Shown here piece by piece: positions 1,316-36,251 of a stretch of DNA of 64,000 bases. The notes under the pieces are model-generated. The model made no database searches and was not told the origin of the DNA. It saw nothing but the letters and a program-made list of their open reading frames with translations. Every line of letters starts with the position of its first letter. The first letter of the stretch is position 1. Location of the stretch: assembly GCF_038637725.1 (NCBI RefSeq), contig NZ_CP152052.1, positions 2,525,501 to 2,589,500 on the forward strand, given 5' to 3'. The DNA is from Psychrobacillus sp. FSL H8-0483. GTDB lineage: Bacteria; Bacillota; Bacilli; Bacillales_A; Planococcaceae. Both the position numbers and the translations under genes were made by a program.

Positions 1316-1362
1316 CTTACACTTTACCGCCTCTTTAGTTAAATAAGAAAAAAGATCCACCT
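1316..1362 (+). repeat. Hairpin repeat copy 1 (degenerate)
   Basis: Contains CCTCTTTAGTTAAATAAG followed by AAAAAAGATCCACCTAA, matching copy 10 (23393) with a decayed left arm. It lies just upstream of the DUF5412 gene and abuts insertion-sequence-like DNA on its right. Confidence 0.55.
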
Positions 1363-1446
1363 AAGTGAACTGTACCTCCAATTGTTAGAATGTGTCTAAC
1401 AAAAAAGTCTTTTCTGCTTCTTGAAGTGAACCACCGGATTAGACAA
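1363..1446. other. Possible insertion-sequence end or MITE remnant
   Basis: AGTGAACTGTACCTCC precedes a TGTTAGA-atgtg-TCTAACA palindrome. A related AGTGAACCACCGG-ATTAGACA follows about 50 bp later. This resembles the ends of IS3-type elements of Bacillales as I recall them, but no transposase is present. Treat it as tentative. Confidence 0.25.
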
Positions 1447-1480
1447 AATGCAGAGGACCCAAAAATGGTCCTCTTCCAAT

Positions 1481-1612
1481 GTATTGATTTCCGATCCAGA
1501 CGGACGCTTTCCGCGGGCATGGCTTCAGTCTCCTCGTCGCTTTCGCTCCTGCGGGGCCTTCAGCTCATACTATTCCCGCTGGAGTCGCCGTCTTCCACTA
1601 CAATCAATTGCC
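1481..1612. repeat. GC-rich dispersed repeat, copy 1
   Basis: A 130-bp GC-rich block with words shared by three other places in the window (14273, 14712, 17926), such as GCTCCTGCGGGGCCTTC and the GGACGCTTTCCGCGGGC type. The edges TTGATT and AATCAA form short inverted repeats. It contrasts sharply with AT-rich surroundings. Such elements are common between genes in Bacillales; open frames inside it are not credible genes. Confidence 0.7.
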
Positions 1613-1623
1613 TACAAAAAAAA

Positions 1624-1653
1624 GGTGTAGAAAAAGACTCGTTTTTCTACACC
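1624..1653 (-). terminator. Terminator of the BltD-like acetyltransferase gene
   Basis: GGTGTAGAAAAA and TTTTTCTACACC pair perfectly around CGAGTC on the minus strand and are followed by a run of eight T. It lies 66 bp beyond the acetyltransferase stop. Confidence 0.85.
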
Positions 1654-1719
1654 TACTTCAATTTATGGGCTTATTGGACAGCCCCGTATTGTCTTACTTA
1701 TAATTCTATCGATGGTTTA

Positions 1720-2172
1720 TCACTCGATATATTTAATAACAGCCATTTCCTTACCAAACCTATCACCATTATCAATAAATCCCAAACTTGAGTATAGATT
1801 ATGTGCTCCCAAATTTTCTGGATGATAACCTACAATAATTTTATTTGCATTTGGTAATTTTGCCATTTCTGAAATCATTAATTTAGTTGCCGCTTTACCT
1901 ATACCCTTACCTTGGAATTCCTTATCTACCATTATTCTATATACCCAATAACCATCAAGTTCTTCTTGAACAGAATTGTACATTAAAAATCCAACTATTT
2001 TTTCTTCAGCATATATAGCATATGGCTTTAGTGAAGGTTCAAACTTTGACTGAGCTATGGATCTAGCATTTGGCTCCATGTATTCTTGTTGTTCTGTTGA
2101 TACCTCTAATTCACAACAGTCGTACCAGTTTTCCGTATTTAATTCTACAATTTTCACATGCTTTGTACTCAT
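1720..2172 (-). CDS. GNAT N-acetyltransferase, polyamine (BltD-like) type
   Basis: 150 residues, the normal length of a single GNAT domain. The acetyl-CoA loop is seen as FQGKGIGKAATK (about residues 86-97). The N-terminal words EQQEYMEPNARSIAQSK and the YWVYRIMVDKE strand match spermidine/spermine acetyltransferases of the BltD kind, which move an acetyl group from acetyl-CoA to a polyamine in the cytoplasm. The substrate is inferred from similarity; a general small-amine acetyltransferase is the alternative. AAAGGGG lies 6 bases before the ATG. It stands alone, with its own terminator and no operon partner. Confidence 0.8.
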   Translation of the reverse strand: MSTKHVKIVELNTENWYDCCELEVSTEQQEYMEPNARSIAQSKFEPSLKPYAIYAEEKIVGFLMYNSVQEELDGYWVYRIMVDKEFQGKGIGKAATKLMISEMAKLPNANKIIVGYHPENLGAHNLYSSLGFIDNGDRFGKEMAVIKYIE

Positions 2173-2213
2173 AATTTTCCCCTTTCAAATTCGGGAAAAC
2201 GCTTTACAATTTG

Positions 2214-2270
2214 TTAATTAGGCGTTATCCCCATGTCGTCTTTCATAGTAAAAATTCTTATGTTTGTCAT
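2214..2270 (-). CDS. 18-codon reading frame with strong ribosome-binding site
   Basis: ATG at 2270 is preceded by AGAGGAGGCG at ideal spacing, and the frame closes after 18 codons (MTNIRIFTMKDDMGITPN). It begins like an acetyltransferase N-terminus and ends abruptly, 43 bp before the start of the next GNAT gene downstream. It may be the stub of a decayed cassette gene, or a short peptide. No function is claimed. Confidence 0.3.
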   Translation of the reverse strand: MTNIRIFTMKDDMGITPN

Positions 2271-2381
2271 AATGAACGCCTCCTCTAACACTATTGCCTA
2301 GAAATAATAGAAAAAATTTTTAGACTATTTAATAATACTATATTTTTCTATTAATTTCCTTAATACACTAAAATTTCTTTC

Positions 2382-2477
2382 TTATTCCACTAACCTGCCC
2401 CGTTAGGCAACCATGAAGCCCTGCTTTACCACAAAATATGGAAGAAAAATTACGTTCTTCCTTGGTAGTTGAACAAG
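2382..2477 (+). repeat. Hairpin repeat copy 2 (long form)
   Basis: Has the left arm TTCCACTAACC, the CTGCCCC loop, the middle words CATGAAGCCCTGC and ACCACAAAATATGG, and the right end TGGTAGTTGAACAAG. It ends 12 bp beyond the stop of the GNAT gene at 2489. Confidence 0.8.
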
Positions 2478-2488
2478 AGGTCAATTAT

Positions 2489-2923
2489 TTATAAAGGCAA
2501 ACTCATAGAAACTGTTCTTATGTTAAAGCCCATTTTTTCGTAAAGTTTTATAGCTGGATTCCCTGCAAACGCACTAAGTCGAACTTCAGAATATCCATCC
2601 TGTCTTAGATGGTCAAATGCAGTTCTCATTAACTGTTTAGAAACTCCATTCCCTCTAAATTCTTCTATAACAAACAGTTCATAAATAAATCCATTCATCT
2701 TGTCAGTAAATTGGTCTTTACCTGCACCTACAAGAATCCAGCCCATTAATTTTTCGTTCTCTGTTGCTATTAAATAATAGCTTCCCTTTTCCAGTAATGG
2801 TTCAATAAGACGTTTGATTTTTTCGTAAGGTTTTACTTCACCCATTGTGCCATCAAATAAAGCTTGTGGAGAAAGTAAAATTACCTTTTCAAGTTCAGAA
2901 TCATTAGGTTTTCTAATATCCAT
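2489..2923 (-). CDS. GNAT family N-acetyltransferase
   Basis: 144 residues, one GNAT fold. The acetyl-CoA binding loop is the EFRGNGVSKQLMRTAF stretch (about residues 88-103; R/Q-x-x-G-x-G/A pattern as RGNGVS), and the C-terminal strand carries NPAIKLYEKMGF, typical of the family. It transfers an acetyl group from acetyl-CoA to an unknown amine substrate. No membrane or signal sequence. AGAAAGGA upstream of the ATG supports the start. It is a single-gene unit with a hairpin repeat directly after its stop. The substrate cannot be read from sequence. Confidence 0.85.
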   Translation of the reverse strand: MDIRKPNDSELEKVILLSPQALFDGTMGEVKPYEKIKRLIEPLLEKGSYYLIATENEKLMGWILVGAGKDQFTDKMNGFIYELFVIEEFRGNGVSKQLMRTAFDHLRQDGYSEVRLSAFAGNPAIKLYEKMGFNIRTVSMSLPL

Positions 2924-3014
2924 TTAAAAATCAGTCCTTTCTATATCCTTTTTTTAAAAGCTTAACAAAGTATTCCAATATTCTTATTCCAGCGATTAAA
3001 ATAAATCGAATTCC

Positions 3015-3110
3015 TTGTTCAACTAACCTGCCCATTACTTGAGGATGAAAAAGGTATTAATGTACTGAAGTAACAACTCAATGATCTTTCACAAAAGCAC
3101 TCGTTAGTAA
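3015..3110 (+). repeat. Hairpin repeat copy 3
   Basis: Begins TTGTTCAACTAACCTGCCC and carries the distal words CAACTCAATGATCTTTCAC and AAAGCACTCGTTAG. It ends 11 bp beyond the stop of the lipoprotein gene at 3121. Confidence 0.75.
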
Positions 3111-3120
3111 AAAATAATAG

Positions 3121-3483
3121 TTATTTTTCTCCATACTTTTCATCCCTAATCGCTTTTCTATACTTACCTTCTTCTTCTTCAATAGCAATTGCTTCTTCTG
3201 TGCTTATTCCTTGCATAGCGCAATATTTTGTACCTTTTTCATACACATTCGAGAAGTTTCCAGAGTACGTGTCCTCTATAACTGAATGGTTTGTTACTTC
3301 ACCGATTTCTTCAACTACATCTTCTACATATTCATCACTTAATCGATAAATATAACCATCCCAAACGACAAATTTAAAAGCCCATTCTGCTGATGAATTG
3401 TTAATAATAGCTGATGAATCGTTGGAGCAACCCGATAAAAAAGCAATAGCTATTAAAGAAAAGAAAAAGTATTTTAATCTCAC
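3121..3483 (-). CDS. Small predicted lipoprotein of unknown function
   Basis: 120 residues starting at GTG with AAAAGGGG upstream. A charged start, a hydrophobic core (YFFFSLIAIAFL) and the lipobox LSGC at about residues 16-19 mark a type II signal peptide, so Cys19 would be lipidated and the rest exposed outside the cell membrane. The mature part is acidic (EEEEGKYRK near the end) with one further Cys. No family is recognised. It is a one-gene unit between hairpin repeats. Confidence 0.65.
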   Translation of the reverse strand: MRLKYFFFSLIAIAFLSGCSNDSSAIINNSSAEWAFKFVVWDGYIYRLSDEYVEDVVEEIGEVTNHSVIEDTYSGNFSNVYEKGTKYCAMQGISTEEAIAIEEEEGKYRKAIRDEKYGEK

Positions 3484-3541
3484 AAGTATTCCCCTTTTTC
3501 ATAAAATTCGTTAATTTCCAATTAAAGTTTCATTTATGGTT

Positions 3542-3633
3542 ATTGAACTAAACTGCTGCGTTAGTTGAATAAGGATAAAGAGCCGTCTATGCAGATCATT
3601 GATCTTTTCTAATACTTTCCTTGGTTCAATAAG
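3542..3633 (+). repeat. Hairpin repeat copy 4
   Basis: TTGAACTAA, an ACTGCTGCG loop, TTAGTTGAATAAG, then GAGCCGTCTATGCAG and a decayed right end GGTTCAATAAG. It ends 12 bp beyond the stop of the small membrane protein gene at 3645. Confidence 0.8.
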
Positions 3634-3644
3634 CGGAAAAATTT

Positions 3645-3827
3645 TTATTGAAAGTTATTAATAATCAATTGAAACCCAAAGATAACGGGTAATATAAAGA
3701 TCAAAAATAGCCCAGTAAACGAGAAGGTTATAAATCTTTTTCTATCTAAACCAACTCTTAATTCCCATAGTCCCAGACATACTAAATACAAACCTATTAG
3801 TATACTAATCATTGGTAATATTACCAT
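3645..3827 (-). CDS. Small two-helix membrane protein
   Basis: 60 residues with two hydrophobic segments (about 3-20 and 35-55) joined by a basic loop LRVGLDRKR. GGGGATTTAT precedes the ATG. No family is recognised and no function is assigned. The compact size, good ribosome-binding site and the hairpin repeat on its 3' side fit the one-gene units of this region. Confidence 0.55.
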   Translation of the reverse strand: MVILPMISILIGLYLVCLGLWELRVGLDRKRFITFSFTGLFLIFILPVIFGFQLIINNFQ

Positions 3828-3952
3828 ATAAATCCCCGTTTTATTTCCCCCTTTAATAATTATTTTTTTATATGTATCTCATTGAACTGACATAGTCCCT
3901 TTACTTTACGTTTGACATGAATGGAATTTCCAATATTAAGTGAATTATCCGA

Positions 3953-4010
3953 TTTAAACTAAACTGCTGCGTTAGTTTAATAAAAATGAGCTGTCTAAAA
4001 CAGCTCATTG
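3953..4010 (+). repeat. Hairpin repeat copy 5 (short form)
   Basis: The first stem TTAAACTAA/TTAGTTTAA is perfect, with an A-T pair where other copies have C-G or G-C at the third position. A second hairpin GAGCTG-tctaaaa-CAGCTC follows. It lies 33 bp beyond the DUF6176 stop. Confidence 0.85.
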
Positions 4011-4042
4011 CTTTTAAAGTAAAACCATATTACTTTAATATC

Positions 4043-4387
4043 TTACTTCATAGAATCTCGAACTTTATCAAGAATCATCACTACTTCAGTTTGTAAATCA
4101 ACTGGTTTATATGTGTCATCAATACATTCACTCCAATATGCAAGGTGTTGTTTATCAATCCAATGTTCGGATTCATCAACCTCATTTCCACCTGTACCTT
4201 GAACAGAATACCAATATAAATATTCTTCTCCATTTAAAACTTCTCGGAAAATGGTTTCTACGTACATTTTCTCGCCTTCAAGAGTTACTAATACATCTTC
4301 CATATGTTCATTTAAGAAGCCTAACCATTCATTTACTTTTTCTGTTTTACCTTGTTTCACTCGAAATCGTGTGCACTCTATTTTCAC
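4043..4387 (-). CDS. DUF6176 family protein
   Basis: 114 residues, soluble, beginning at GTG with AGGAAGGAA upstream. The pattern of FRVKQGKTEKVNEWLGFL near the N-terminus, EGEKMYVETIF and EYLYWYSVQG in the middle, and a WSEC word matches DUF6176, small proteins related to ferredoxin-like alpha+beta barrels. No enzymatic role is established. It is a single-gene unit with a short hairpin repeat on the 3' side. Confidence 0.7.
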   Translation of the reverse strand: MKIECTRFRVKQGKTEKVNEWLGFLNEHMEDVLVTLEGEKMYVETIFREVLNGEEYLYWYSVQGTGGNEVDESEHWIDKQHLAYWSECIDDTYKPVDLQTEVVMILDKVRDSMK

Positions 4388-4456
4388 TCTAAATTGTTCC
4401 TTCCTATCATTTAATAATCACCATTCTACCACATATTAACAAATTTAAATTACATC

Positions 4457-4517
4457 CTTATTCAACTAAACTGCTTCGTTAGCATAAGAAGCGACTGCTC
4501 TAATTGAACAATCGCAC
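4457..4517 (+). repeat. Hairpin repeat copy 6 (partial)
   Basis: CTTATTCAACTAA, ACTGCTTCG loop, then a decayed right arm TTAGCATAAG and GCGACTGCTCTAATTG. It ends about 25 bp beyond the stop of the alpha/beta hydrolase at 4542. Confidence 0.7.
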
Positions 4518-4541
4518 TCCGTTCTATAACTTTATAAGTTA

Positions 4542-5402
4542 CTAAACATTTAAGAAATCAACGATCATTTTCTTTTCACGCTTTGGCATCATATGAATGT
4601 GTCCGCACCCTTTTAGCATATGAGTCGTTCTATTTGGTATGATTCTTTTTGCTCTTGGTATTACTTTTTTCGCTGGAAATAAACAATCTTTTTCTCCTGC
4701 CATAATAAGTGTCGGAGCTTTACACTGTTGCATTAATTGTTCACTCACATTGGATGGCATCCCTACTTTTGTTTTTACATAATCAAAGCTATCTTTCACC
4801 ATATCCAAAGTATCTTTATCAAGAATTTCTTCGTTAATAGCTATAAATGAAGCTGTTTCTTTTATATATTTTTCTTTCTTTGTTAGTTTATATTTGAGTA
4901 GAGGAATCATCATTTTTACAGTACTGATTGGAAAGGCGTTATTAATACCTGATGGCACAATTAATACGGATTTTTTTATTTTTTCCGGTGCCGTACACAT
5001 CAGTTTTGCCAAAACTCCGCCTCCAAACGAAACCCCAAAACAAGCTATTTTATCAAATCCAAGTCCTGTAATAACGTCATTTGCCAACTTCCCATAATCA
5101 TAATTTCTAGGAGAGAGACTCACTTCATCACTTTTTCCAGGGTGGCCAATAATATCAACCGCATAGATGTGAAAATTCTTAAGCAGGAATCTATACATTA
5201 GTAAATTATAGGCAGACGTACTATTTCCGCCATGAAATACTAGCAATGGTTCACCCGATAGATTGGCAGTTTCAATGATATGTGTTCTTCCAAAACGAGT
5301 ATGCACGTAAACATCCTTATATGAATAATCCAATTTCTTCAATTGAGTATCATAAAGCTTTAAAGACATTTCTCTTCCAGATTGTGTTTTGTATATACTC
5401 AT
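4542..5402 (-). CDS. Alpha/beta hydrolase
   Basis: 286 residues, usual length for the fold. The oxyanion word LLVFHGGNS (about residues 53-61) and the nucleophile elbow CFGVSFGGG (Ser near residue 125) are present. The likely acid and histidine are in MAGEKDCLFPAKK and GCGHIHMMP near the C-terminus, so the triad looks complete. The substrate is unknown; esters, lactones or peroxides are possible. No signal peptide, hence cytoplasmic. AAAGGGC precedes the ATG. A GNAT/NUDIX-rich accessory setting suggests a detoxification or stress role, which is inference only. Confidence 0.85.
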   Translation of the reverse strand: MSIYKTQSGREMSLKLYDTQLKKLDYSYKDVYVHTRFGRTHIIETANLSGEPLLVFHGGNSTSAYNLLMYRFLLKNFHIYAVDIIGHPGKSDEVSLSPRNYDYGKLANDVITGLGFDKIACFGVSFGGGVLAKLMCTAPEKIKKSVLIVPSGINNAFPISTVKMMIPLLKYKLTKKEKYIKETASFIAINEEILDKDTLDMVKDSFDYVKTKVGMPSNVSEQLMQQCKAPTLIMAGEKDCLFPAKKVIPRAKRIIPNRTTHMLKGCGHIHMMPKREKKMIVDFLNV

Positions 5403-5513
5403 ATAGCCCTTTCCTATAGATTATTAATTCCTCCATGTAAACTCAGCAACTTACCTCCATATGTATTGGTTGACGGTGCTTTAACGATAAAAGCACCTAG
5501 TAACATAAAAATA

Positions 5514-5542
5514 GTGAAGAAAAGCAAATTGCTTTTCTTCAC
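5514..5542 (-). terminator. Terminator of the pyrimidine degradation operon
   Basis: GTGAAGAAAAGC and GCTTTTCTTCAC form a perfect stem around a four-base loop, 16 bp beyond the stop of the small gene at 5558. T-rich bases follow on the minus strand. Confidence 0.8.
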
Positions 5543-5557
5543 CTTTATTTCTGTCAT

Positions 5558-5767
5558 TCATTGCAAGAAAATTTGTTCTTGTAGCTTTGCCGAAAAATAT
5601 TTACGCGCATCTGCTGTAAGAATCTGCAAATGAACAACTTCCTCCTGACTTGTAAACTCTACAAACATACCACTTAAATTTTCATATGCGTATTGAATTT
5701 TAAAGCCACTGTCTAAATAATCATCTACTTTTTTTATTTCACTTATACTTTGTAAGTAATCCGACAT
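5558..5767 (-). CDS. Small soluble protein, last gene of the pyrimidine operon
   Basis: 69 residues, no membrane segment, no recognised family. It has a clear ribosome-binding site (GCGAGGTGATTGT then ATG) and lies about 105 bp after the present NCS1 stop, but only 22 bp after the end of the in-frame extension of that gene (see 5790). A strong terminator follows at once, so it appears to be the sixth gene of the pyrimidine operon. Mixed alpha/beta composition with VVHLQILTADARKYF near the middle. Function unknown. Confidence 0.6.
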   Translation of the reverse strand: MSDYLQSISEIKKVDDYLDSGFKIQYAYENLSGMFVEFTSQEEVVHLQILTADARKYFSAKLQEQIFLQ

Positions 5768-20607: not shown

Positions 20608-20698
20608 ATAAAAATTAATTTGCTCTTCTATTAATATCACCTAATCTTGATAACTTATTAGTATATTATTTATTATTCGTTAAAAATAGGAGAAATCC

Positions 20699-20938
20699 TT
20701 CTTGAACTAACCTGCTGCGTTACTTGAATAAGAAAAAGGCTCTATTTCTACTAAAGTAAAGCACCCGTTAGCCATCCATGAAGCCCAAAATAATGCTGCA
20801 CCACAGAGTATGAAAAATGGTTAAGAGTGGTCAAAACTAATAATCCACCGAAATCCATAGACTTATTAATGTACGCCCTCCTCTTTTTTTATTGATTGAG
20901 CAGGGTCTTCTTAACTGTTGTCATTTTTCTTTCAACTT
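20699..20938 (+). repeat. Hairpin repeat copy 7 (extended form, 240 bp)
   Basis: Left hairpin TTGAACTAA, CCTGCTGCG, TTACTTGAATAAG, then AAAGCACCCGTTAGCCATCC, GCACCACAGAGTATG and an extra segment (CCACCGAAATC, TATTAATGTACG, CTCCTCTTTTTTT, AGGGTCTTCTTAA). Copy 17 at 34391 shares the extra segment, so the long form is also a repeat. It lies upstream of the GC-rich methyltransferase gene. Confidence 0.85.
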
Positions 20939-21271
20939 ATTTTCATTAATATTAAACCTGTTTATAAATAATGAATTTGAAATTATTAACAGATGAAAGT
21001 AAATTAAAGATAAACCACCCCCTCCTTTACACTTCAAAGATACTATGCTTTCGCATAAAAATGGTTCATATTATTTTTAAATTTGTTAAAACTAATAATA
21101 AGTGAAAAATAGATATGTAGAGAGTTGCAAACAACTTTAATTTTGGGGATGATAAAAATTTTTAGACATTACACTTTTTATGAGACTCATTTAGGGAAAT
21201 TTATATACAAAAAAAAAGAACGACTTAAATATAAGCCGTTACGTTTTGTATCTCTATTCAAATGGTATCAT
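20939..21271. other. AT-rich gene-free stretch
   Basis: About 330 bp between two hairpin repeats and before the AraC stop. A GGAGGGGG ribosome-binding-like word occurs on the minus strand near 21020 but no reading frame follows it. A weak inverted repeat (GAACGACTTAAATAT, AAGCCGTTACG) lies near 21218-21244. Nothing else is recognised. Confidence 0.4.
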
Positions 21272-21303
21272 CTTCAACAAAACTGCTTCTTTAGTTGAAT
21301 AAG
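21272..21303 (+). repeat. Hairpin repeat copy 8 (minimal form)
   Basis: TTCAACAAA, ACTGCTTCT loop, TTAGTTGAATAAG only. It ends 16 bp beyond the AraC gene stop. Confidence 0.75.
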
Positions 21304-21318
21304 AATAAAAATATACAG

Positions 21319-22209
21319 TTAATTATCATCCATTTTTATTTTTTTGTATGCCAATGGCGTCTTCTTCATAGATGCTCGGAATTTCTCAATAAAATAACTT
21401 GTACTGTTAAAACCTACCTGATAGGCAACTTCGGTAATGCTCATTTCTGCTTGTTGCAGTAGAATTAAGCTCTTCTGAATTCGATAATCCACTACATAAT
21501 TTAAAGGTGTCGTATTTAATACTTTCTTAAAATATCGGCAGCTTTCAGAACGACTCAATTGACCTGCTTTTGCAATATCATCTAACATAATTTTCTCAGC
21601 ATAATGTAAATGTATCCAACTTAACATTTGCTTCATTCGCTGACTTTTTAACATTTCAGTCTGAACGTATTCTGGTTGAAAACCATTAATGATTAGGTTT
21701 TTCCAAATTAATGCTAGTTGCATTGTTATATCAATTTCAAAGTATTGTGATTTTCGCTCAATCAGCTGTTTGATTTTTAAAATTGCTTCTAATATATTTT
21801 TCCCCCAAAGTTCATTCGCATTTATATATAAATAAGGTAAATTAGTCGCTCTAATATAGGGACTTACATAGGTTGTATAGAGTTCTAGAGATAAAACGAA
21901 ATGAGGAGAAACATTAAAACATATATAAACACATCCCGATTGGTTCTTATCTTTCGCCATATGTAGGCAACCACTATTTATAAATAAACCGTCGCCTCTT
22001 CTAACCACAATTTCATCTTTATTTATTTGGAAGATTGCTTCTCCTTTTACTACAAAAACAAATTGAATTTCATCATGCCAATGAAGTGGTATATACCCAT
22101 TGATGTTTTGGTTAATAGTTGTTTCATAGCATGCAATGGGGAGTACAATTGTGCGATGCTCAGTTAGCTCTTTTAAGCTTTGATCAACTTTAAAATTTTT
22201 TATTTGCAT
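21319..22209 (-). CDS. AraC family transcriptional regulator
   Basis: 296 residues. An N-terminal cupin-like sensing domain (LHWHDEIQFVFVVKGEA, about 42-58) and a C-terminal double helix-turn-helix (about 190-290) with LSRSESCRYFKKVL and VAYQVGFNSTSYFIEKFRA. It binds DNA and probably responds to a small molecule in the cupin pocket. It is divergent from the EamA exporter gene across a 106-bp gap, so that exporter is the likely target. Ligand unknown. Confidence 0.88.
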   Translation of the reverse strand: MQIKNFKVDQSLKELTEHRTIVLPIACYETTINQNINGYIPLHWHDEIQFVFVVKGEAIFQINKDEIVVRRGDGLFINSGCLHMAKDKNQSGCVYICFNVSPHFVLSLELYTTYVSPYIRATNLPYLYINANELWGKNILEAILKIKQLIERKSQYFEIDITMQLALIWKNLIINGFQPEYVQTEMLKSQRMKQMLSWIHLHYAEKIMLDDIAKAGQLSRSESCRYFKKVLNTTPLNYVVDYRIQKSLILLQQAEMSITEVAYQVGFNSTSYFIEKFRASMKKTPLAYKKIKMDDN

Positions 22210-22315
22210 ATAACCACCTCAAAATCCTTTTATTTTTTTATTTGATTCTAGTATTTATTACGGTATCTTTCAATTATCATAACACTATTATTATATTTAA
22301 GGTGGAGATAAAATC

Positions 22316-23263
22316 ATGAATATAACCGCTAGAGGTAGGGGTTTATTTTTTGTAATTACAGGAGCGATATTTTGGGGAATCGGCGGAACCGTGTCTCAAA
22401 AACTTTTCCAACAGTATACAATTGATGTAAATTGGCTAGTAACAATACGGTTGATTATAGCAGGTTTCTTACTCTTAACCGTTCAATTCTTTGTTAAAGA
22501 CGGTTCTCAAATATTTGCTGTCTGGAAAGATAAAAAAGGCGGTTTTCAACTCGTAATCTTTGGGTTTTTCGGAATGCTTGCAGTACAGTACACATATATG
22601 GCATCAATAGCTGCTGGAAACGCTGCTGTTGCAACATTATTACAATATTTATCACCCGTCATGATTATCATTTATTTAATTTTCCGCAAACAAACAGTTC
22701 TATCAAGACAAGATTTATTAACGGTTTCCTTAGCTCTATTTGGCTGTTTTTTCTTACTAACAAACGGTTCCATTTCACAACTATCTGTACCAACTTCAGC
22801 TATCGTTTGGGGGATTTTATCTGGCATAGCAGCAGCATTTTATACTTTATATGGTGCTTATTTACTGAAGAGATATGATTCTCTTGTAATTGTTGGCTGG
22901 GCTATGATTATCGGTGGTATTGCATTAAGTTTTATCAGCCCTCCTTGGAAAATCAACTTAGCACACTTAACGACAGAAGCTTATTTATACTTAGGTTTCG
23001 TGATTATTTTCGGTACGATGCTTGCTTTCTGGTTTTATATAGAGAGTTTAAAAAGTCTTTCGCCGAAAGAGACAAGTCTTCTCGGAAGTCTAGAGCCACT
23101 AGCAGCAGTTTTTACAACCGTATTCTGGTTAAGAGAACCTTTTGGAACTTTTCAATGGGTTGGAACTGTTTGCATAATTGGAATGACTTTATTGTTGGCA
23201 TTGAATAAAAATTTTTCATCAAAGACTAACAAGGCTGCCGGAAAAGAAAGCCTCTTTGATTAA
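22316..23263 (+). CDS. EamA/DMT family transporter
   Basis: 315 residues with ten hydrophobic helices in two EamA repeats (about 8-145 and 160-300). [16 protein letters not shown] at the start and [20 protein letters not shown] in the second half are family words. Members export amino acids, nucleosides or other metabolites across the cell membrane; the substrate here is not readable. AAGGTGGAG lies before the ATG. Divergent AraC regulator upstream, hairpin repeat 21 bp after the stop. Confidence 0.88.
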
Positions 23264-23283
23264 ACTAAACCTTCTATGTATAG

Positions 23284-23347
23284 CTTATTCAACTAAACTG
23301 TTGCGTTAGTTTAATAATAAAAAAGAGCTGTCTAAGCAACTCCACGA
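23284..23347 (+). repeat. Hairpin repeat copy 9 (short form)
   Basis: CTTATTCAACTAA, ACTGTTGCG loop, TTAGTTTAATAA, then AAAAAGAGCTGTCTAAGCAAC. It keeps the same orientation as the other copies although the adjoining gene (EamA) is on the opposite strand. Confidence 0.8.
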
Positions 23348-23392
23348 TTACTTGCTGGGTATTCTAAACAAGAACGTACCCACACGATTTTT

Positions 23393-23467
23393 GTTGAACT
23401 AACCTGCCCCTTTAGTTCAATAAGAAAAAGAGCCACCTAAACAGTTATTTTCATGGTAGTTGAGCAA
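23393..23467 (+). repeat. Hairpin repeat copy 10
   Basis: Perfect stem TTGAACTAA/TTAGTTCAA (a G-C pair at the third position), CCTGCCCC loop, AATAAGAAAAAGAGCC, then TTTTCATGGTAGTTGAGCAAG. It ends 13 bp beyond the NUDIX stop. Confidence 0.88.
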
Positions 23468-23479: not shown

Positions 23480-23929
23480 TTATCTTAACCAATCCAATTG
23501 TATCGCTCGCTCTTTAGCGATATCTAGAATCTGTATCCTTGTCTCATTTCCTAATTCTACTTTAGAGATTATTTGTTTAGCAGTTTCAAAATTAGAGATT
23601 ACATACCCTAATTTCTCAAAATCGAATGTAGAAGTTAGAAATTTTACAGCCTTTACTAAAAACCACACTGTATAAGTATCCGATGCTTGCCAATACCACG
23701 ATGCAAATGGAATCCTCTTAGTACTAAGTGTCATACCTACTTCCTCCATAGCTTCACGTTCAAGTGCTTCATCAATGCTTTCGTTCTCTTCAATTCTTCC
23801 ACCAATAGTCGTTAATAGCTTTTCTTCTTTATCCCACGCCATAACAATTGTTCCATTTTCCGTTATTGGAATACAATGTACACCCGCAATTCTTTTATCT
23901 TCAGGTAAATCAATTATCGTATTTAACAT
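23480..23929 (-). CDS. NUDIX hydrolase
   Basis: 149 residues from the preferred ATG, which has GGGGGAG 6 bases upstream; a longer frame from 23953 swallows that site. The NUDIX box G-x5-E-x7-REUXEEXGU is complete: GRIEENESIDEALEREAMEE then VGM (about residues 42-65). It hydrolyses a nucleoside diphosphate linked to another group, needing Mg2+. Substrate unknown; oxidised nucleotides or sugar nucleotides are usual. First of three NUDIX genes in the accessory region, each alone between repeats. Confidence 0.85.
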   Translation of the reverse strand: MLNTIIDLPEDKRIAGVHCIPITENGTIVMAWDKEEKLLTTIGGRIEENESIDEALEREAMEEVGMTLSTKRIPFASWYWQASDTYTVWFLVKAVKFLTSTFDFEKLGYVISNFETAKQIISKVELGNETRIQILDIAKERAIQLDWLR

Positions 23930-24015
23930 AGTCATCTCCCCCGTTTCATACAAAGTCCTTTAGTATTACTTCGCCTAAAGACATCCTTTTTCCTATTAAC
24001 TATAACAACATTCTG

Positions 24016-24050
24016 TTATTCAACTAAGCACTCGTAGTTCAATAAAAAGT
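24016..24050 (+). repeat. Hairpin repeat copy 11 (minimal, variant loop)
   Basis: TTATTCAACTAA, GCACTC loop, GTAGTTCAATAAAAAG. The loop belongs to the second hairpin type (AAAGCACCCG) of the long copies. It overlaps the end of the DUF5316 remnant and supplies its stop codon. Confidence 0.65.
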
Positions 24051-26710: not shown

Positions 26711-27298
26711 TTATTGTTTAACGCTAATACTTACCCCCCATATTCTTTGAACGTGCAGTAATTCCTGTTCATTGAATTCCATTCTGTAAATATCAGGTTT
26801 TGATGTGCTATGTAAAAAATTCAAGTCATAGGTGCTATCGAAATATCCCATCATCAAGGTCATAATAGCCCCGTGAGTTCCTATCACTACTTTTTTATTT
26901 CTCAAAGTATCTAATAGTTCTTTTAAAACTTTTATAGCTCTTTTTTGACAATCAGCATTTGATTCTCCTCCCTCTAAGGAGAAATTTGAATCGAAAAACG
27001 ACTTTTCCAAAATCTGAACCAATTCCTTATCAGCTAATCTTTTGTTTTCAGAAGAAAATATCCTCTCTTTTAAATCCTCAAAAACTAAAACTTCTTGCCC
27101 TATTTGTTGAGCTATCTTTTCAACAGTCAATATTGAACGTATGTATGGGCTTGAAACAACTGCATCGATTTTTTCATCTTTCAATATGTCAGTTACTCGT
27201 TGAGCATCTAAATAACCTTTTCCGGTTAATCCTCTTGTTCTATCATTTCCTTCTTTTGGCGACTCACCGTGTCTCACCATATAAACAACTGTACTCAA
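26711..27298 (-). CDS. Histidine phosphatase (phosphoglycerate mutase-like) family protein
   Basis: 195 residues. The catalytic RHGES is at about residues 9-13 (VVYMVRHGESPKEGN), an arginine follows in VVSSPYIRSILTVE, and the second histidine is in VVIGTHGAIMTLMM near residue 144. Branch members dephosphorylate sugar phosphates, nucleotides or small metabolites. Cytoplasmic. The substrate is unknown. It is a single-gene unit with a hairpin repeat beginning 39 bp upstream. Confidence 0.85.
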   Translation of the reverse strand: MSTVVYMVRHGESPKEGNDRTRGLTGKGYLDAQRVTDILKDEKIDAVVSSPYIRSILTVEKIAQQIGQEVLVFEDLKERIFSSENKRLADKELVQILEKSFFDSNFSLEGGESNADCQKRAIKVLKELLDTLRNKKVVIGTHGAIMTLMMGYFDSTYDLNFLHSTSKPDIYRMEFNEQELLHVQRIWGVSISVKQ

Positions 27299-27336: not shown

Positions 27337-27567
27337 TCTTCAACTCTACTGCCTCGTTAGTTTAAGTGTAACATTTCACAATGGATCGCCGAAATCTACT
27401 TGATGTTTTGGACGAAAAAATAGACATTCGAAATGATGGTCATGTTAAACTAAAACACCCGTTAGCCATCCATGTAGCACAAAATCAGTGTGCACCACAG
27501 AGAATGAAAATGTTTAGGAAGTGTCATACTGCTTGAAGAAACTAATTTTCATGGTAGTTTAAGTGAA
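27337..27567 (+). repeat. Hairpin repeat copy 12 (split long form)
   Basis: A left hairpin CTTCAACTCTACTGCCTCGTTAG is followed, after about 75 unrelated bases, by AAACACCCGTTAGCCATCC, GCACCACAGAGAATG and TTTTCATGGTAGTTTAAG. It ends 59 bp before the stop of the small gene at 27626. Confidence 0.75.
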
Positions 27568-27852: not shown

Positions 27853-27911
27853 TATTAAACTAAACTGTCTCGTTAATTCAATTAGAAAAAAGAGCAGCCC
27901 CTTTGCAGTTT
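27853..27911 (+). repeat. Hairpin repeat copy 13 (partial)
   Basis: TTAAACTAA, ACTGTCTCG loop, TTAATTCAATTAG, then AAAAAAGAGCAGCCCCTTTGCAG. About 80 bp beyond the SLH protein stop. Confidence 0.7.
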
Positions 27912-30589: not shown

Positions 30590-30740
30590 CTTATTCAACT
30601 AACCTGCTGCGTTAGTTCAAAGAAAAAGTGTTGCTTAAGCATCCCGACGATCTTTAACTAAGCACCCGTTAGCCATCCATAAAGCCCTGCTTCACCACAG
30701 AATATGGAAAAAAATTACGTTCTTCCATTGTAGTTGAATA
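30590..30740 (+). repeat. Hairpin repeat copy 14 (most complete, 150 bp)
   Basis: Starts TTATTCAACTAACC and ends TGTAGTTGAATA, giving inverted termini. Inside are the CTGCTGC loop hairpin, GATCTTTAACTAAGC, ACCCGTTAGCCATCC, GCCCTGCTTCACCACAG, AATATGG and TTACGTTCTTCCAT. This copy serves best as a model of the family. Confidence 0.88.
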
Positions 30741-30755
30741 CATGAAACTTTTTAG

Positions 30756-30899
30756 CTCATAAAAGGTATTATTCTACTTCAAATAAGAAAAAGGTTAGTG
30801 GAAGAAGGAATTATAGAAAACCAACGAGAATATGTTAATAAACCAATTATTAAAATAAAGTTAAAAGAAAAATTTGATAGAGTGTGGTGTAATTATTGA
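30756..30899 (+). pseudogene. C-terminal fragment of a regulator-like gene, overlapping the next start
   Basis: An open frame after a TAG at 30753 encodes about 47 residues with RKRLVEEGIIENQREYVNKP and IIKIKLKEKF, which look like the end of a winged-helix protein. No good start codon is present. Its TGA overlaps the TTG start of the alpha/beta hydrolase, as in translational coupling. Either a truncated cassette gene or a short coupled leader; family not identified. Confidence 0.35.
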
Positions 30900-31660
30900 A
30901 AATAGAGAAATATGAAATGAAAACATCAAAAGGGAAGTTACAATATAATATTCGTGGAAATGGTAAACCAAATATAGTTTTAATCAATGGTGGGGCAGGT
31001 CCTATTGAAGGTTGGATGAAAATATTACCAGAAATTTCGGAATCTTTCACTGTATTTTCTTATAATCGGTTTGGAGTTGGTGGCAGTGATAAACCAAACG
31101 AATCACAAGATGGTACAACGATAGTAAAAACTCTTCATGAAGCACTTACTATAGCGGGGATTGAACCTCCATTATTATTAGTTGGACATTCATTAGGCGG
31201 ATTATATGTAAATTTATTTGCTAGACTTTATCCGAACGAGGTAGCTGGAATAGTTTTTTTAGAATCTAGCCATCCTAAAGATTTAAGCCTAAATGAATAC
31301 CAAGGTAATACAGTAAAAACAATAAATAAATTGTTCAAAATGTTTGATTCGTTGTCTCCACATAAACAATTTGATGAAGTTAATTATGTGAAAGATACTG
31401 TGAATCAAATTCAACAAATAAAGATTTTTCCTGAGATACCTGTATTTGTTGTTACAGGTGGAAAGGAAAATCGAATGATACCAGAGGAAGTTCGAACAAA
31501 ACGAGTAGAGAATCAATTGGAATATCTTTCATTGTCTAAAAATAGCAAACATATTGTCGCTGAAAAAAGCGGACATTTTCCTCAATTAACAGAGCCTACA
31601 GTCGTCATAAATACTATCAAAGATTGTGCAAAACTAATTAGATCAAAGGATAATCAATAA
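30896..31660 (+). CDS. Alpha/beta hydrolase
   Basis: 254 residues from a TTG start that overlaps the TGA of the fragment before it. NIVLINGGAGPIEGW (about 22-36) forms the oxyanion side and LLLVGHSLGGLYV (about 98-110) the nucleophile elbow with Ser near 104. FVVTGGKENRM and KSGHFPQL near the C-terminus place the acid and histidine. Cytoplasmic; substrate unknown. It resembles proline iminopeptidase/haloperoxidase-like hydrolases. The second alpha/beta hydrolase of the accessory regions but not a duplicate of the one at 4542. Confidence 0.83.
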   Translation: MKIEKYEMKTSKGKLQYNIRGNGKPNIVLINGGAGPIEGWMKILPEISESFTVFSYNRFGVGGSDKPNESQDGTTIVKTLHEALTIAGIEPPLLLVGHSLGGLYVNLFARLYPNEVAGIVFLESSHPKDLSLNEYQGNTVKTINKLFKMFDSLSPHKQFDEVNYVKDTVNQIQQIKIFPEIPVFVVTGGKENRMIPEEVRTKRVENQLEYLSLSKNSKHIVAEKSGHFPQLTEPTVVINTIKDCAKLIRSKDNQ

Positions 31661-31718
31661 TTTTGATAATTAAAATGGGAGAAACAAAGCGAAACAAGAA
31701 ATGCTACAGAGGTAGCAA

Positions 31719-31792
31719 TGTTAGCCATCCATGAAGCCCTGCTTCACCAAAGAATAGGGAAAAAAAAATACATTCTTCCATGGTAGTTGAAG
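31719..31792 (+). repeat. Hairpin repeat copy 15 (right half)
   Basis: Contains GTTAGCCATCCATGAAGCCC, TGCTTCACCA, AGAATAGGG and TTCTTCCATGGTAGTTGAAG; the left hairpin is missing and is replaced by a GCTAC-agag-GTAGC hairpin at 31703. It ends 10 bp beyond the stop of the NUDIX gene at 31802. Confidence 0.8.
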
Positions 31793-31801: not shown

Positions 31802-32272
31802 CTAACTTCTGTTTGTATCATCAATTGCAGAGTTTAAAGTACTCTCCCACCAAATATCCTTATTTCCATTTAAATAATTTTTTATCAAATTCCTAAATGG
31901 GTAAGGTTGTAAATTTATAGTATCCAAGTCATTCGCATTGCACCAGAAAAAATTAAGATGAGACTCACTTGATTTTGGGTTAAAACTTGTTGTTAATTCA
32001 TCGTTTGTAACCTCAAATACTTGATTTATTTCGCAATTTAAAATGCCTTTTTTCTCCCACTTGTGTTCTACTAACCCAAGTAAACTAACCACTGTGCATG
32101 TTATTCCTAATTCTTCTTCTATCTCTCTTATCAGTGCATCTTTTGCACTTTCGCCAAATTCTATGTGACCACCTGGTAAAAATGTATTTGGATATCCGGT
32201 TGCTTGTGCAAGTAAAACTTTATTATCTTTTATAAAGATTCCCCTTGCTAAATGATGAAATGGATTAGGCAA
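31802..32272 (-). CDS. NUDIX hydrolase
   Basis: 156 residues. The NUDIX box is complete at about residues 34-57 (GGHIEFGESAKDALIREIEE then ELGI). The N-terminal PFHHLARGIFIKDNKVLLAQ and C-terminal LQPYPFRNLIKNYL fit MutT-like pyrophosphohydrolases. Needs Mg2+; the substrate is not readable. GGGGGAGAA precedes the ATG. It differs from the NUDIX genes at 23480 and 33877 outside the box, so they were not made by local duplication. Confidence 0.85.
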   Translation of the reverse strand: MPNPFHHLARGIFIKDNKVLLAQATGYPNTFLPGGHIEFGESAKDALIREIEEELGITCTVVSLLGLVEHKWEKKGILNCEINQVFEVTNDELTTSFNPKSSESHLNFFWCNANDLDTINLQPYPFRNLIKNYLNGNKDIWWESTLNSAIDDTNRS

Positions 32273-32354
32273 GAAATTCTCCCCCTTACAATATTTTTTA
32301 ACTGCATTTGGTACTTATTCTTTATCTCAGTAAAAAACCTTTAAATATGAATAG

Positions 32355-32389
32355 TTCTTCTTCAACTAATCTGTTCCGTTAGTTTAAGT
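32355..32389 (+). repeat. Hairpin repeat copy 16 (minimal form)
   Basis: TTCTTCAACTAA, TCTGTTCCG loop, TTAGTTTAAG. It lies 83 bp upstream of the NUDIX gene at 31802. Confidence 0.7.
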
Positions 32390-33534: not shown

Positions 33535-33592
33535 TAATGTTTATTAGTTCTTGAATATGAGAGGCTACCACCCGTTACATTAAGTTCATCTA

Positions 33593-33638: not shown

Positions 33639-33876
33639 TTACCAAAATAAGAGCGTTAGTTCTTAAACGAAAAAAAAGAAACCATATTCTTGTTTGGTTA
33701 GTGAGAAAACTGTGCAACGTGTGATGGCGATTGTTGTCATTATTAAATAATTGACGACCTTTAATCTACCCCCTATAATTGAATCTCCCAATAATAAGGC
33801 ATGCCTATTAAAATCATTACTACACGAATTGCAAACAAACCAGTTCCTATTTTTTTACCATACATCTCCGCTACAC
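33639..33876. other. Gene-free spacer
   Basis: AT-rich, no gene recognised. Together with the terminator it fills the 340 bp between the DUF3955 stop and the NUDIX stop. Confidence 0.4.
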
Positions 33877-34323
33877 TCAGACGTATTCAAAAATCTTTAT
33901 ATCTACCGAATCAATGTTGCCTATTTCGTCATACAAGTTCCATAGCACTATATCTGATGTTTCCTCATTTTCTATAAATGGTTGTAATTCTTTTATTGTT
34001 GTAAAGTAAACGGGATTAAATTTAATGTTCCCATTCATTGTATTTTTCACCTTCAATAAACCCTTGAATTCTATATCTGTTACTATTTGTCCAGTTTCTT
34101 CGTATAGTTCTCTTAATGCACATTCCTTCGGTGTTTCATTCTCTTCTCTTTGACCAGCAGGCACTTCCCATTGTTTACGATACTTGTTATAACAAAGAAG
34201 ATATTTTTCTTTACATTTTATTACTGCGTAAGAACCTGCTAATGGCTGATAGTCATCTATATCCTTCTCTTTTAAACTAATAAATTCAAGTAATTCAAAT
34301 CCATTATTCTTAGTAGTATTCAA
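33877..34323 (-). CDS. NUDIX hydrolase
   Basis: 148 residues. The box GQREENETPKECALRELYEE then TGQ (about 74-96) is complete, preceded by the usual YNKYRKQWEVPAG strand. Third and most distinct NUDIX gene of the region, of the kind that hydrolyses nucleotide sugars or oxidised nucleotides. GGGGGGAAT precedes the ATG. A hairpin repeat begins 68 bp upstream of the start; no repeat copy was seen on its 3' side. Substrate unknown. Confidence 0.85.
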   Translation of the reverse strand: MNTTKNNGFELLEFISLKEKDIDDYQPLAGSYAVIKCKEKYLLCYNKYRKQWEVPAGQREENETPKECALRELYEETGQIVTDIEFKGLLKVKNTMNGNIKFNPVYFTTIKELQPFIENEETSDIVLWNLYDEIGNIDSVDIKIFEYV

Positions 34324-34390
34324 ATAATTCCCCCCTTATGATCCTCTAAATATTTTCTTCTCGTCATTTAAATTCCTGTACTTTACTTTC

Positions 34391-34651
34391 CTTCTTCAAC
34401 TAACCTACCCCTTTAGCCATCCATGCAGCACAGAGAATGAAAATGGATAGAGGAGTCAATACTTGTAGTCCACCGAAATCAATAGCCTTATTAATGTACG
34501 ATCTCCTCTTTTTTTACGATTAAGCTGGGGTCTTCTTAAGTATTGTCATTTTCCTTTTGTTGAAGAAATTAATTTTCATGATAGTTGAACAAGAAAAAAG
34601 AGTTGCATTGCAACTCAATGATCTTTAACTAAAGCACCATTATAGTTTAAG
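34391..34651 (+). repeat. Hairpin repeat copy 17 (extended form, 260 bp)
   Basis: TTCTTCAACTAACC runs into CTTTAGCCATCCATG, then the extra segment shared with copy 7 (CCACCGAAATC, TTATTAATGTACG, TCTCCTCTTTTTTT, GGGGTCTTCTTAA), then TTTTCATGATAGTTGAACAAG, GTTGCATTGCAAC and TTTAACTAAAGCACC. It seems to be two elements fused. Confidence 0.82.
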
Positions 34652-34931
34652 AAACATTGTAGGTTGTTGAATTAGCTAACGATGTCATATTTTTTAAGGT
34701 TTAAAAAAATTCTTTAATAAAATCCAAAAGTCACCGAACGCAAATATATTAGGAACAAATAATAAGCTTTTTATCTACTTTCATCGTGAATATAATCTCT
34801 CCGTTCAAAGCTATAGATTAGTAAATTACTATAGAAAGCTGATTTATATATTATACGAGAGTATAACACAATCAAACTTATTAAATCTTTCATATACTTT
34901 CATATATTTATTATTTGAAAGGATGGTGTAT

Positions 34932-35867
34932 ATGGGAATAGGACCACATATGATTGATTTGGGTACGCTCGGGGGAACTGTCAGTGTTGCTATTGGTATT
35001 AATGACCGTGGACAGATTGTAGGAGGATCTCGGACGGCTAATGATTTGGAACTACATGCTTTCCTATGGCAAAACGGTGTGATGACCGATCTCGGTACGC
35101 TTGGTGGATTCAACGGTTATGCTACTAGTATAAATGACCGTGGACAGATTGTGGGAGGATCGCAAACGGCTACTAGTGGGGAATTCCATGCTTTCCTATG
35201 GCAAAACAGTGTGATGACCGATCTCGGTACGCTTGGTGGAAGCAATAGTCAAGCTAATGATATTAATAACCGTGGACAGATTGTAGGAGATTCGCAAATG
35301 GCTAATGGGGAAACTCATGCTTTCCTATTGCAAAAAAACGGTGTGATGACCGATCTTGGTACGCTTGGTGGGAGCTTTAGTGGCGCTATTAGTATAAATG
35401 ACCGTGAACAGGTTGTGGGATTTTCGGATACGGCTAATGGGGAAGTCCATGCTTTCCTTTGGCAAAACGGTGTGATGACCGATCTCGGTACGCTTGGTGG
35501 AAGCTTTAGTGGCGCTGATAGTATAAATGACCATGAACAGGTTGTGGGAATTTCGGAAACGGCTAATGGGGAAGCTCATGCTTTCCTATGGCAAAACGGT
35601 GTGATGACCGATCTCGGTACGCTTGGTGGAAGCTTTAGTGGCGCTACTAGTATAAATGACCGTGAACAGGTTGTGGGATTATCGGATACGGTTAATGGGG
35701 AAAGTCATGCTTTCCTTTGGCAAAAAGGCGTGATGACTGATCTCGATACGCTCGGGGGAACCTTCAGTTTTGCTTCTGATATTAATAACCGTAGACAGGT
35801 TGTGGGAGATTCGGAAACGGCTAATGGGGAAGATCATGCTTTCCTATGGCAAAAGCAGATTCCATAA
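34932..35867 (+). CDS. HAF-repeat protein (seven tandem modules)
   Basis: 311 residues consisting only of seven modules of 43-44 residues, each with M(T/I)DLGTLGG, SINDREQVVG-like and HAFLWQ words (the HAF name-giving motif). The ATG at 34932 has GAAAGG 9 bases upstream; an ATG at 34923 is too close to that site. No signal peptide, lipobox or anchor is seen, although HAF proteins are usually thought to be surface or secreted beta-propeller-like proteins; seven modules would suit a seven-bladed propeller. Neighbouring modules are nearly identical in DNA, pointing to recent unit duplication. Function unknown. Confidence 0.8.
   Translation: MGIGPHMIDLGTLGGTVSVAIGINDRGQIVGGSRTANDLELHAFLWQNGVMTDLGTLGGFNGYATSINDRGQIVGGSQTATSGEFHAFLWQNSVMTDLGTLGGSNSQANDINNRGQIVGDSQMANGETHAFLLQKNGVMTDLGTLGGSFSGAISINDREQVVGFSDTANGEVHAFLWQNGVMTDLGTLGGSFSGADSINDHEQVVGISETANGEAHAFLWQNGVMTDLGTLGGSFSGATSINDREQVVGLSDTVNGESHAFLWQKGVMTDLDTLGGTFSFASDINNRRQVVGDSETANGEDHAFLWQKQIP
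34935..35860 (+). repeat. Coding tandem repeat of about 129-132 bp, seven units
   Basis: Units share GTGATGACCGATCTCGGTAC and GGAAGCTTTAGTGGCGCT almost unchanged in units 4-6, while units 1-3 and 7 are more diverged. The central units therefore look youngest, as expected for unequal crossing-over. Confidence 0.85.
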
Positions 35868-35899
35868 ATCCACTAATGGCAAAGAAGTTCACCTAATGA

Positions 35900-36081
35900 A
35901 ACAATCACACAATCGCTAGCCTGCTATTCAACAGATGAAATATATACTTATGTCAACAAGCGGGTCTTCAAATAATTGCAGTTTACCCGGGTGGAGCAAT
36001 TAATTTTGATACTTGGCAGTTTGAGGAAGTCACTTCGTTATCAAATTGTTTATCTTACCGAATTAAAGTAAAAAGATTTTA
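35900..36081 (+). pseudogene. Unidentified gene fragment
   Basis: Two abutting plus-strand frames look like one broken coding sequence: ACYSTDEIYTYVNKRVFK to about 35977, then, shifted, GLQIIAVYPGGAINFDTWQF with TAA at 36081. No start codon or family is recognised. It may be the tail of a lost accessory gene. Confidence 0.3.
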
Positions 36082-36094
36082 ATTCATGTTTTTT

Positions 36095-36130
36095 AAAGAG
36101 GCTACTAGCAAGTTGCTAGTAACCTCTTTA
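36095..36130. terminator. Strong symmetric stem-loop
   Basis: AAAGAGGCTACTAGCAA and TTGCTAGTAACCTCTTTA pair with one mismatch. It follows the gene fragment at 35900-36081 by 14 bp and could be its old terminator. Confidence 0.6.
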
Positions 36131-36167
36131 ATGTATATATAAAATTTTAGATTCCAATTAATATTCC

Positions 36168-36251
36168 TTATTTAACTAACCTGCCCCTTTAGTTCAATAA
36201 GAAGAATGTTTTACTCGTTCTTAAAGTAGAGGACCTATTAGTTTAAGTGCA
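36168..36251 (+). repeat. Hairpin repeat copy 18
   Basis: TTATTTAACTAA, CCTGCCCCT loop, TTAGTTCAATAAGAAG, then a decayed right part with ACCTATTAGTTTAAG. It lies about 110 bp beyond the stop of the esterase gene at 36359. Confidence 0.75.

Follow-up and report, generated by a model that had tools for sequence, protein, structure and literature searches.

Paired candidate recombination sites and a putative Xer-type recombinase in proposed gene-cassette arrays of Psychrobacillus sp. FSL H8-0483

Why does one short hairpin recur behind one unrelated gene after another? The question is raised by the window analyzed here, a stretch of 64,000 nucleotides from Psychrobacillus sp. FSL H8-0483 (positions 2525501-2589500 of a single-contig genome of 4,136,829 bases). 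A first-pass annotation had described hairpin repeats between one-gene units in this window and had proposed either a cassette-capture system or a miniature inverted-repeat transposable element (MITE). The repeats raise two questions: (i) whether they are sites at which genes are exchanged and (ii) which enzyme acts on them. We consider that the repeats probably serve a gene-cassette system as paired sites for site-specific recombination by one Xer-type tyrosine recombinase. Of the two earlier proposals, cassette capture is supported and a plain MITE is not.

Two core sites and alternating modules

In the window, a profile search recovered 19 non-overlapping repeat copies, every one of them on the + strand, in line with the roughly 19 uniformly oriented copies described earlier. 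Their distribution was also as described: two accessory areas plus one weak copy near 48 kb, recovered at 48027-48086 with 17 bits. No Rfam family was found on the window's repeats at gathering score. In 464 kb of host chromosome, comprising the window and 20 regions chosen for containing copies, the profile detected 173 copies versus 0 after the same sequence was reversed. A simple pattern run over the whole genome found 56 forward and 67 reverse copies; the pattern read backwards found 0 and 2.

Copy orientation matches GC skew. Blocks of positive skew have all their copies (94/94) on the minus strand, and blocks of negative skew have 75/79 on the plus strand (the four exceptions form a single block at 2.29 Mb); in three relatives the orientation of 578 of 582 copies agrees with the sign of the skew. 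By a simple open reading frame (ORF) call, the leading strand holds 360 of the 477 genes of the host's own array blocks, so the repeats are oriented more coherently than the genes. Because copies inside one array are not independent, the orientation bias is given without a probability.

No copy among the 173 is centered more than 60 bp inside an ORF of at least 100 aa. For 63 copies the 60 bp upstream include a same-sense stop, versus 545 of 3398 random intergenic positions, an enrichment close behind stops. When the nearest upstream gene boundary is taken at any distance, it is a same-sense stop for 133/173 copies and 2464/3398 random intergenic positions, a small difference.

Read in gene sense, a full copy begins with site 2, continues with a short hairpin that has T residues behind it, and closes with site 1. 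Site 1 is AACTAA-CGNNGCAGK-TTAGTT (logo TTCTTATTnAACTAAcGcaGCAGgTTAGTTgAAnAAG, 492 copies, 9 bases between the arms) and site 2 is AACTAA-CGGGTGCT-TTAGTT (logo TTnAACTAACGGGTGCTTTAgTTnAA, 354 copies, 8 bases between the arms). Both carry the symmetric inverted arms TTnAACTAA / TTAGTTnAA around spacers of different sequence. Inverted arms flanking a spacer are the design of a tyrosine-recombinase core site. In the site 1 spacer the two bases between CG and GCAG are variable, and the site 2 spacer is nearly constant. The stem-loop TTCAACTAA / CTGCcCC / TTAGTTGAA of the first-pass annotation is one complete core site of recombination type (site 1 in reverse complement) and not the whole hairpin; the part described as AAGCACCCGTTAG belongs to site 2. 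Counting overlapping matches alike in all three cases, we found 587 site 1 and 382 site 2 matches in gene sense. The opposite strand had 30 and 20, and the sequence after reversal 49 and 16.

Followed in the direction of its genes, an array has the order site 1, gene, site 2 and terminator, after which site 1 and a gene come again. Steps between successive sites run from site 1 to site 2 in 297 cases (median 620 bp) and from site 2 to site 1 in 293 (median 40 bp), 590 alternating steps in total. The longest ORF lies in array sense in 215 of the 254 site 1-to-site 2 modules of 250-2500 bp. The short site 2-to-site 1 modules are predicted to be short intrinsic terminators: 183 of 232 are terminator-like in gene sense, versus 36 in antisense and 11-16 in shuffles. 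A second, longer type of terminator module (~110 bp) also recurs.

This organization resembles the dif modules of Acinetobacter (PMC13141974). There, genes are bounded by tyrosine-recombinase sites in inverse arrangement, two module types must alternate, recombination occurs in the sites, and shuffling is extensive. Two module types also alternate here, with 297 and 293 alternating steps versus 217 and 80 non-alternating ones. The Acinetobacter modules are plasmid-borne, whereas here the arrays are chromosomal, the sites uniformly oriented, their arms symmetric, the terminator one of the module types and the recombinase gene itself a module. Chromosomal dif sites in general have distinct XerC and XerD arms and a 6-bp spacer; here 9 and 8 bases separate AACTAA from TTAGTT between symmetric arms. 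Another dispersed, foldable repeat of Bacillaceae genomes is the bcr repeat of the Bacillus cereus group, a likeness of description.

Exchanged units and crossover positions

Potentially addressing the first question, units of the array occur separately elsewhere. When window positions 850-5700 were searched in 19 genomes of the genus, separate units were found in different genomes at 82-94% identity, with ends at repeats (for example 2483-3036 in genome G016, 3087-3579 in G004, and 3543-3962 in G012). Among the 29 loci of this search (L126-L154), repeats lay on both sides of the match in 8 and on one side or overlapping it in 4. None was detected at the other 17, which are ordinary homologues or another, GC-rich repeat.

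Comparison with the arrays of G003, G008, and G011 yielded 158 matches (at least 80% identity over at least 250 bp), which reduce to 76 distinct segments inside arrays. Within 10 bp of a repeat lie 57 of their 152 ends, versus a mean of 9.1 and a maximum of 18 under random shifts; for 15 of the 76 segments this holds at both ends (random shifts, mean 0.5, maximum 3). The hardest null placed ends at gene boundaries plus 0-120 bp in 500 trials and gave a mean of 25.5 repeat-near ends (maximum 45) and 5.1 both-end segments (maximum 13). As judged from these alignments, unit boundaries at repeats exceed both null models.

Where within a repeat do the exchanges fall? A 745-bp segment is present at 1.853 and 2.247 Mb with 98.8% identity, and the two blocks that contain it differ in the sign of their GC skew. 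Called repeats coincide with three of the pair's four ends, and the fourth is at site 2 of the recombinase module described below. Of 241 duplicate pairs (at least 200 bp, at least 90% identity), 224 were kept after removal of 17 at block edges, and at least one end could be placed in 46 of these. Placed junctions number 31 at site 1 (19 5', 12 3') and 22 at site 2 (9 5', 13 3'). On the left side of site 1, identity stops after 7-9 bases (AACTAAC to AACTAACGN) in 7/12; on the right side it stops after 11-12 bases (GCAGKTTAGTT) in 11/19, and 5/19 differ already at K. These end points suggest that the exchange falls in the site 1 spacer; the site 2 spacer is too constant for equally close placement. 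With crossovers at either site, gene modules and terminator modules would both be exchangeable, and terminator modules are also seen to vary on their own, apart from the gene.

The first-pass alternative can be weighed at this point. A terminator-type MITE that inserted behind genes and carried them only by chance would account for the short hairpin, the inverted ends, the enrichment close behind stops, and a coding relative with the same ends. The independent change of terminator modules speaks against it, as do gene-containing segments that end at repeats on both sides above either null. A plain MITE is unsupported, since what moves includes genes and is broken at sites, and we regard this explanation as highly improbable. 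Cassette capture is favored by gene-plus-repeat units that are found one at a time in other genomes, their breakpoints falling within repeats, and by a tyrosine recombinase inside some repeats.

Are the cassettes, then, those of a true integron, with attC sites folded from a single strand, an IntI-type integrase, and one R-box crossover per site? Integrons share with these arrays mostly single-gene units, a hairpin behind each, uniform orientation tied to GC skew, complementary outer and inner arms, cassette-like cargo (GNAT, NUDIX, and unknown genes), and mobile gene-plus-site units, found here by comparison of sequences. Integrons are likewise visited by site-targeting insertion sequences. 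For the IntI-type integrase with its extra domain (TIGR02249), 0/41 genomes pass the cut-off, and the module recombinase reaches 90 of 265 bits. In place of a single crossover in the R' box of attC, junctions fall at both sites of a repeat. The R box consensus of integrons is GTTRRRY / RYYYAAC, and the site logos ([GT]TTAGTT, AACTAAC) miss this core by one position. Two further differences are the intrinsic terminator inside the repeat and the recombinase gene inside some repeats. The earlier statement that the repeat is not a classical attC therefore stands on the IntI search and the crossovers at two sites, which led us to reject a plain attC/integron reading; true integron cassettes seem quite unlikely. 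Since the integron fails on integrase and crossover point, and the workings seem dif-module-like, we read the arrays as gene cassettes moved by a tyrosine recombinase.

The insertions in the sites also recall attC. The "long" copies, taken earlier for a longer form of the repeat, are repeats in which a core site is interrupted by an IS110-family element or by a short derivative that has no transposase gene. The motif GTTAG stands just before the left end of 78 of 93 insertions, a biased count in that loci L031-L096 were fetched with a pattern including GTTAG. Eleven loci, three of them from the host genome, run on into a reading frame of the same type, and the three frames scanned (two from the host, one from a named genome) match DEDD_Tnp_IS110 and Transposase_20. 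IS1111 elements target integron attC, and IS110/IS1111 members target attC and repetitive extragenic palindromic (REP) sequences (PMC11187229). The elements found here, likewise of the IS110 family and in the repeat's core sites, differ from that IS1111-attC group in being Bacillaceae elements with a different target sequence and many short derivatives without a transposase gene. In the window, two such derivatives of ~170 bp (20774-20940 and 34419-34590) lie in core sites and are 85% alike over 68 bases; they are possibly moved by an enzyme supplied elsewhere. A group II intron (RF02005) lies at site 1 of the host's own recombinase module (L110 / L155), and group IIC introns are known to target integron attC sites. 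Other group II intron proteins were seen near arrays (L114; plasmid locus L245).

Several observations weigh against the proposed cassette system. Segment ends are not at a repeat in 95 of 152 cases, and among the 224 duplicate pairs a site is near but placement is unclear in 73, and neither end is near a recognized site in 105. The non-alternating steps (217 from site 1 to site 1, 80 from site 2 to site 2) may be either missed degenerate sites or fused modules. Among 45 of 55 candidate pairs of orthologous arrays with and without one unit, none was conclusive: those with long unique matches on both sides (such as 617-bp and 1207-bp insertions) are away from recognized sites, and those at sites have a short, repeat-sized match on one side. 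Five of the 17 genomes with at least nine site 2 matches (G002, G005, G014, G056, and G101) have no recombinase match of at least 80% identity, and the association of recombinase and sites reported below is inflated because the module itself carries sites. The evidence for movement, finally, comes from sequence comparison.

Some of these points would suit homologous recombination between repeats that an older process had spread, with no site-specific recombinase acting. Copies have 20-90 bp of similar sequence in common, some site-rich genomes have no module recombinase, and many duplicate ends are away from sites. Placed breakpoints in two different short sites, the preservation of spacer and arms across hundreds of copies, and a recombinase gene bounded by the same two sites argue against this explanation, which we judge unlikely.

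A recombinase gene in the terminator slot

Addressing the second question, the first-pass annotation had suggested looking for a tyrosine recombinase or a REP-associated tyrosine transposase (RAYT) next to the repeat. A tyrosine recombinase sits inside some repeats. The RAYT search gave two Y1 transposase (Y1_Tnp) matches in the host genome, at 770 and 927 kb (0.77 and 0.93 Mb), and no repeat copy was found in either 3.3-kb locus; a RAYT/REP explanation was rejected on this ground.

The host genome has 18 tyrosine-recombinase matches. The recombinase encoded in a module (294 aa, 1853420-1854301) is 82-96% identical to relatives both within the genus and outside it, and 28 of 101 family genomes match it at E 1e-40, more distant matches included. 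All 12 copies of at least 82% identity with both flanks read have site 1 or a remnant of it before the gene and a hairpin and site 2 behind it; all 12 occupy the terminator position, antisense to the array, and two have an internal stop. No repeat surrounds seven more distant relatives (61-66% identity; L167-L172, L174), and one at 67% (L173) has two partial matches. Genomes G064 and G120, from two other genera, encode a module recombinase 94% identical to the host copy. Identity of a chromosomal Xer relative is only 64% and 67% in these genomes, a contrast that suggests transfer from one genus to another. Among viral contigs no module recombinase was found; one, IMGVR_UViG_2832286576_000003, has two stretches (L246, L247) with an exact site 2.

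The protein passes the NCBIfam XerA model (NF040815) with 222.1 bits against a cut-off of 220 and reaches 90.3 of 265 bits on the IntI model TIGR02249. By sequence, its nearest solved proteins are XerC-like, XerD, and XerA. XerA is a chromosome-dimer enzyme of archaea. XerA-type single recombinases share the model and the symmetric sites that one protein would need, and differ in that the gene here is mobile and multi-copy.

At least three site 2 matches occur in all 14 genomes that have a recombinase copy or fragment of at least 80% identity, versus 8 of the 87 others. Four of the five site-rich genomes without such a match are drafts of 20-110 contigs.

We propose that this single Xer-type recombinase, encoded in a module in the terminator slot, would join like site to like site. 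A gene-plus-terminator pair could then be excised as a circle and inserted in another place that has a matching site. Orientation would be set by the asymmetric spacer, and genes would therefore lie mostly in array sense and on the leading strand, with a terminator behind.

The same two-site module system could also be worked by another recombinase, such as the resident XerC/XerD. Acinetobacter dif modules operate in this way (PMC13141974), and some site-rich genomes have no module recombinase. The symmetry of the site arms argues against it. So does a third chromosomal Xer relative, which at E 1e-60 is absent from four g27 genomes rich in sites (G044, G078, G091, and G101) and was rejected as the necessary enzyme on that basis. 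Another recombinase, XerC and XerD included, is possible but doubtful. For the chromosomal dif, one B. subtilis-like pattern was not found in the genome.

Cargo, neighboring features, and spread

The features of the window are listed in Table 1. The ORF at 3121-3483 has no Pfam match, and "lipoprotein" is the label of the first-pass annotation. Among 58 cargo ORFs (64 listed minus six short ones), anti-phage models matched two families with one member each. The sigma-70 consensus is not enriched in module leaders (1 of 30 leaders versus a null mean of 1.2).

Table 1. Sites, repeats, and modules of the window (positions count from its first letter; identities are those of segments shared with other genomes)
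Feature	Position	Strand	Remarks
Site 1 (2388-2408), then short IS110-type remnant	2388..2475	-	~10 bp behind stop of GNAT gene 2489-2923
Gene module, GNAT acetyltransferase	2489..3020	-	Segments 2483-3036 (G016, 91%) and 2480-2951 (G008, 91%), other neighborhoods
Repeat: site 1 3021-3040, site 2 3090-3109	3021..3109	-	
Gene module, ORF 3121-3483	3110..3545	-	Segment 3087-3579 in G004, 93.5%
Repeat with site 1 3546-3566	3546..3607	-	Site 2 not recognized
Gene module, small ORF 3645-3827	3620..3956	-	Segments 3543-3962 (G012, 89%) and 3621-3955 (G011, 87%)
Repeat, site 1 3957-3977	3957..4023	-	
Gene module, DUF6176	4043..4463	-	
Repeat, site 1 4464-4484	4464..4523	-	
Repeat: site 1 20705-20725, short T module, site 2 20754-20773	20705..20940	-	Upstream of methyltransferase gene 19825-20640; site 2 interrupted by IS110-type derivative without transposase gene
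Site 1 behind stop of AraC-type gene 21319-22209	21276..21305	-	
Two-gene divergent module: AraC-type regulator (-), EamA transporter (+)	21319..23290	.	
Two site 1 copies in succession, 23291-23311 and 23397-23417	23291..23465	-	
Gene module, NUDIX	23480..23953	-	
Lone site 2, no T module	24022..24039	-	
Gene module, histidine phosphatase	26711..27298	-	Segment 26688-27315 in G008, 89%
Long-T-type repeat: site 1 27342-27362, site 2 27448-27467	27342..27560	-	Site 2 interrupted by IS110-type remnant
Site 1 and partial T module	27858..27901	-	
Full repeat: site 1 30597-30617, hairpin, site 2 30656-30674	30597..30738	-	Site 2 interrupted by IS110-type remnant
Module with reversed alpha/beta hydrolase gene 30896-31660	30739..31720	+	Segment 30739-31720 in G008, 96.6%
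Site remnant with IS110-type remnant	31720..31790	-	
Gene module, NUDIX	31802..32354	-	Segment 31784-32389 in G008, 94.4%
Site 1-like	32355..32387	-	
Gene module, NUDIX	33877..34323	-	
Repeat: site 1 34398-34418, site 2 34627-34647	34388..34647	-	Site 1 interrupted by IS110-type derivative
Repeat: site 1 36174-36194, degenerate site 2 36224-36243	36174..36243	-	
Gene module, Abhydrolase_3	36359..37300	-	Segment 36164-37528 in G008, 92%, repeat to repeat
Degenerate site 1-like sequence	37517..37545	-	Last of the array
Weak isolated copy	48027..48086	-	

Several neighbors of the array merit description. A second, GC-rich dispersed repeat lies at window positions 1465-1702, with 14 other copies listed in the host genome (82-99% identity); many further genomes of the genus carry it as well. 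A tandem-repeat gene at 34923-35867 (unit ~129 bp, DUF3466-like) has an 86% relative at 2.209 Mb. The methyltransferase gene at 19825-20640, beside the array, has a G+C content visibly above that of its surroundings. A methionyl-tRNA synthetase-like gene (37550-39508) with a T-box leader (39245-39508, RF00230) lies directly at the array end.

The repeat extends well beyond the host. At least one site 2 match was found in 38 of 101 family genomes. An exact 22-mer of the filled site occurs in 66 stretches of named genomes, of which two are Paenibacillus and one is Chryseobacterium; the other 63 carry names of genera that we take to belong to the Bacillaceae or Planococcaceae. Seven plasmid records contain the repeat, four of them from Peribacillus. 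One example is Sporosarcina psychrophila plasmid pSP10-266k (NZ_CP146247.1): in a 25-kb stretch, the recombinase gene is the sole annotated gene on its strand, and merR-merA-NUDIX, a gene for an M1 peptidase, and a GNAT gene are flanked by sites.

Integrons have been described mainly from Gram-negative bacteria. Among the open-licence PMC papers that literature searches listed, none describes the system reported here in its title or the start of its abstract. We give about an even chance to a broader proposition, that Bacillaceae and Planococcaceae have a third self-contained cassette system besides integrons and dif modules, in which a single Xer-type recombinase, its gene itself a cassette, would move alternating gene and terminator modules and would have built a large part of the accessory chromosome. 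With more than 100 sites per chromosome in common soil Bacilli, a cassette system would help to explain how these bacteria collect and share accessory genes, among them the mercury reductase unit on the Sporosarcina plasmid. The idea of a gene cassette would also be separable from the folded single-strand attC. With two short sites and one enzyme, the system is directly testable.

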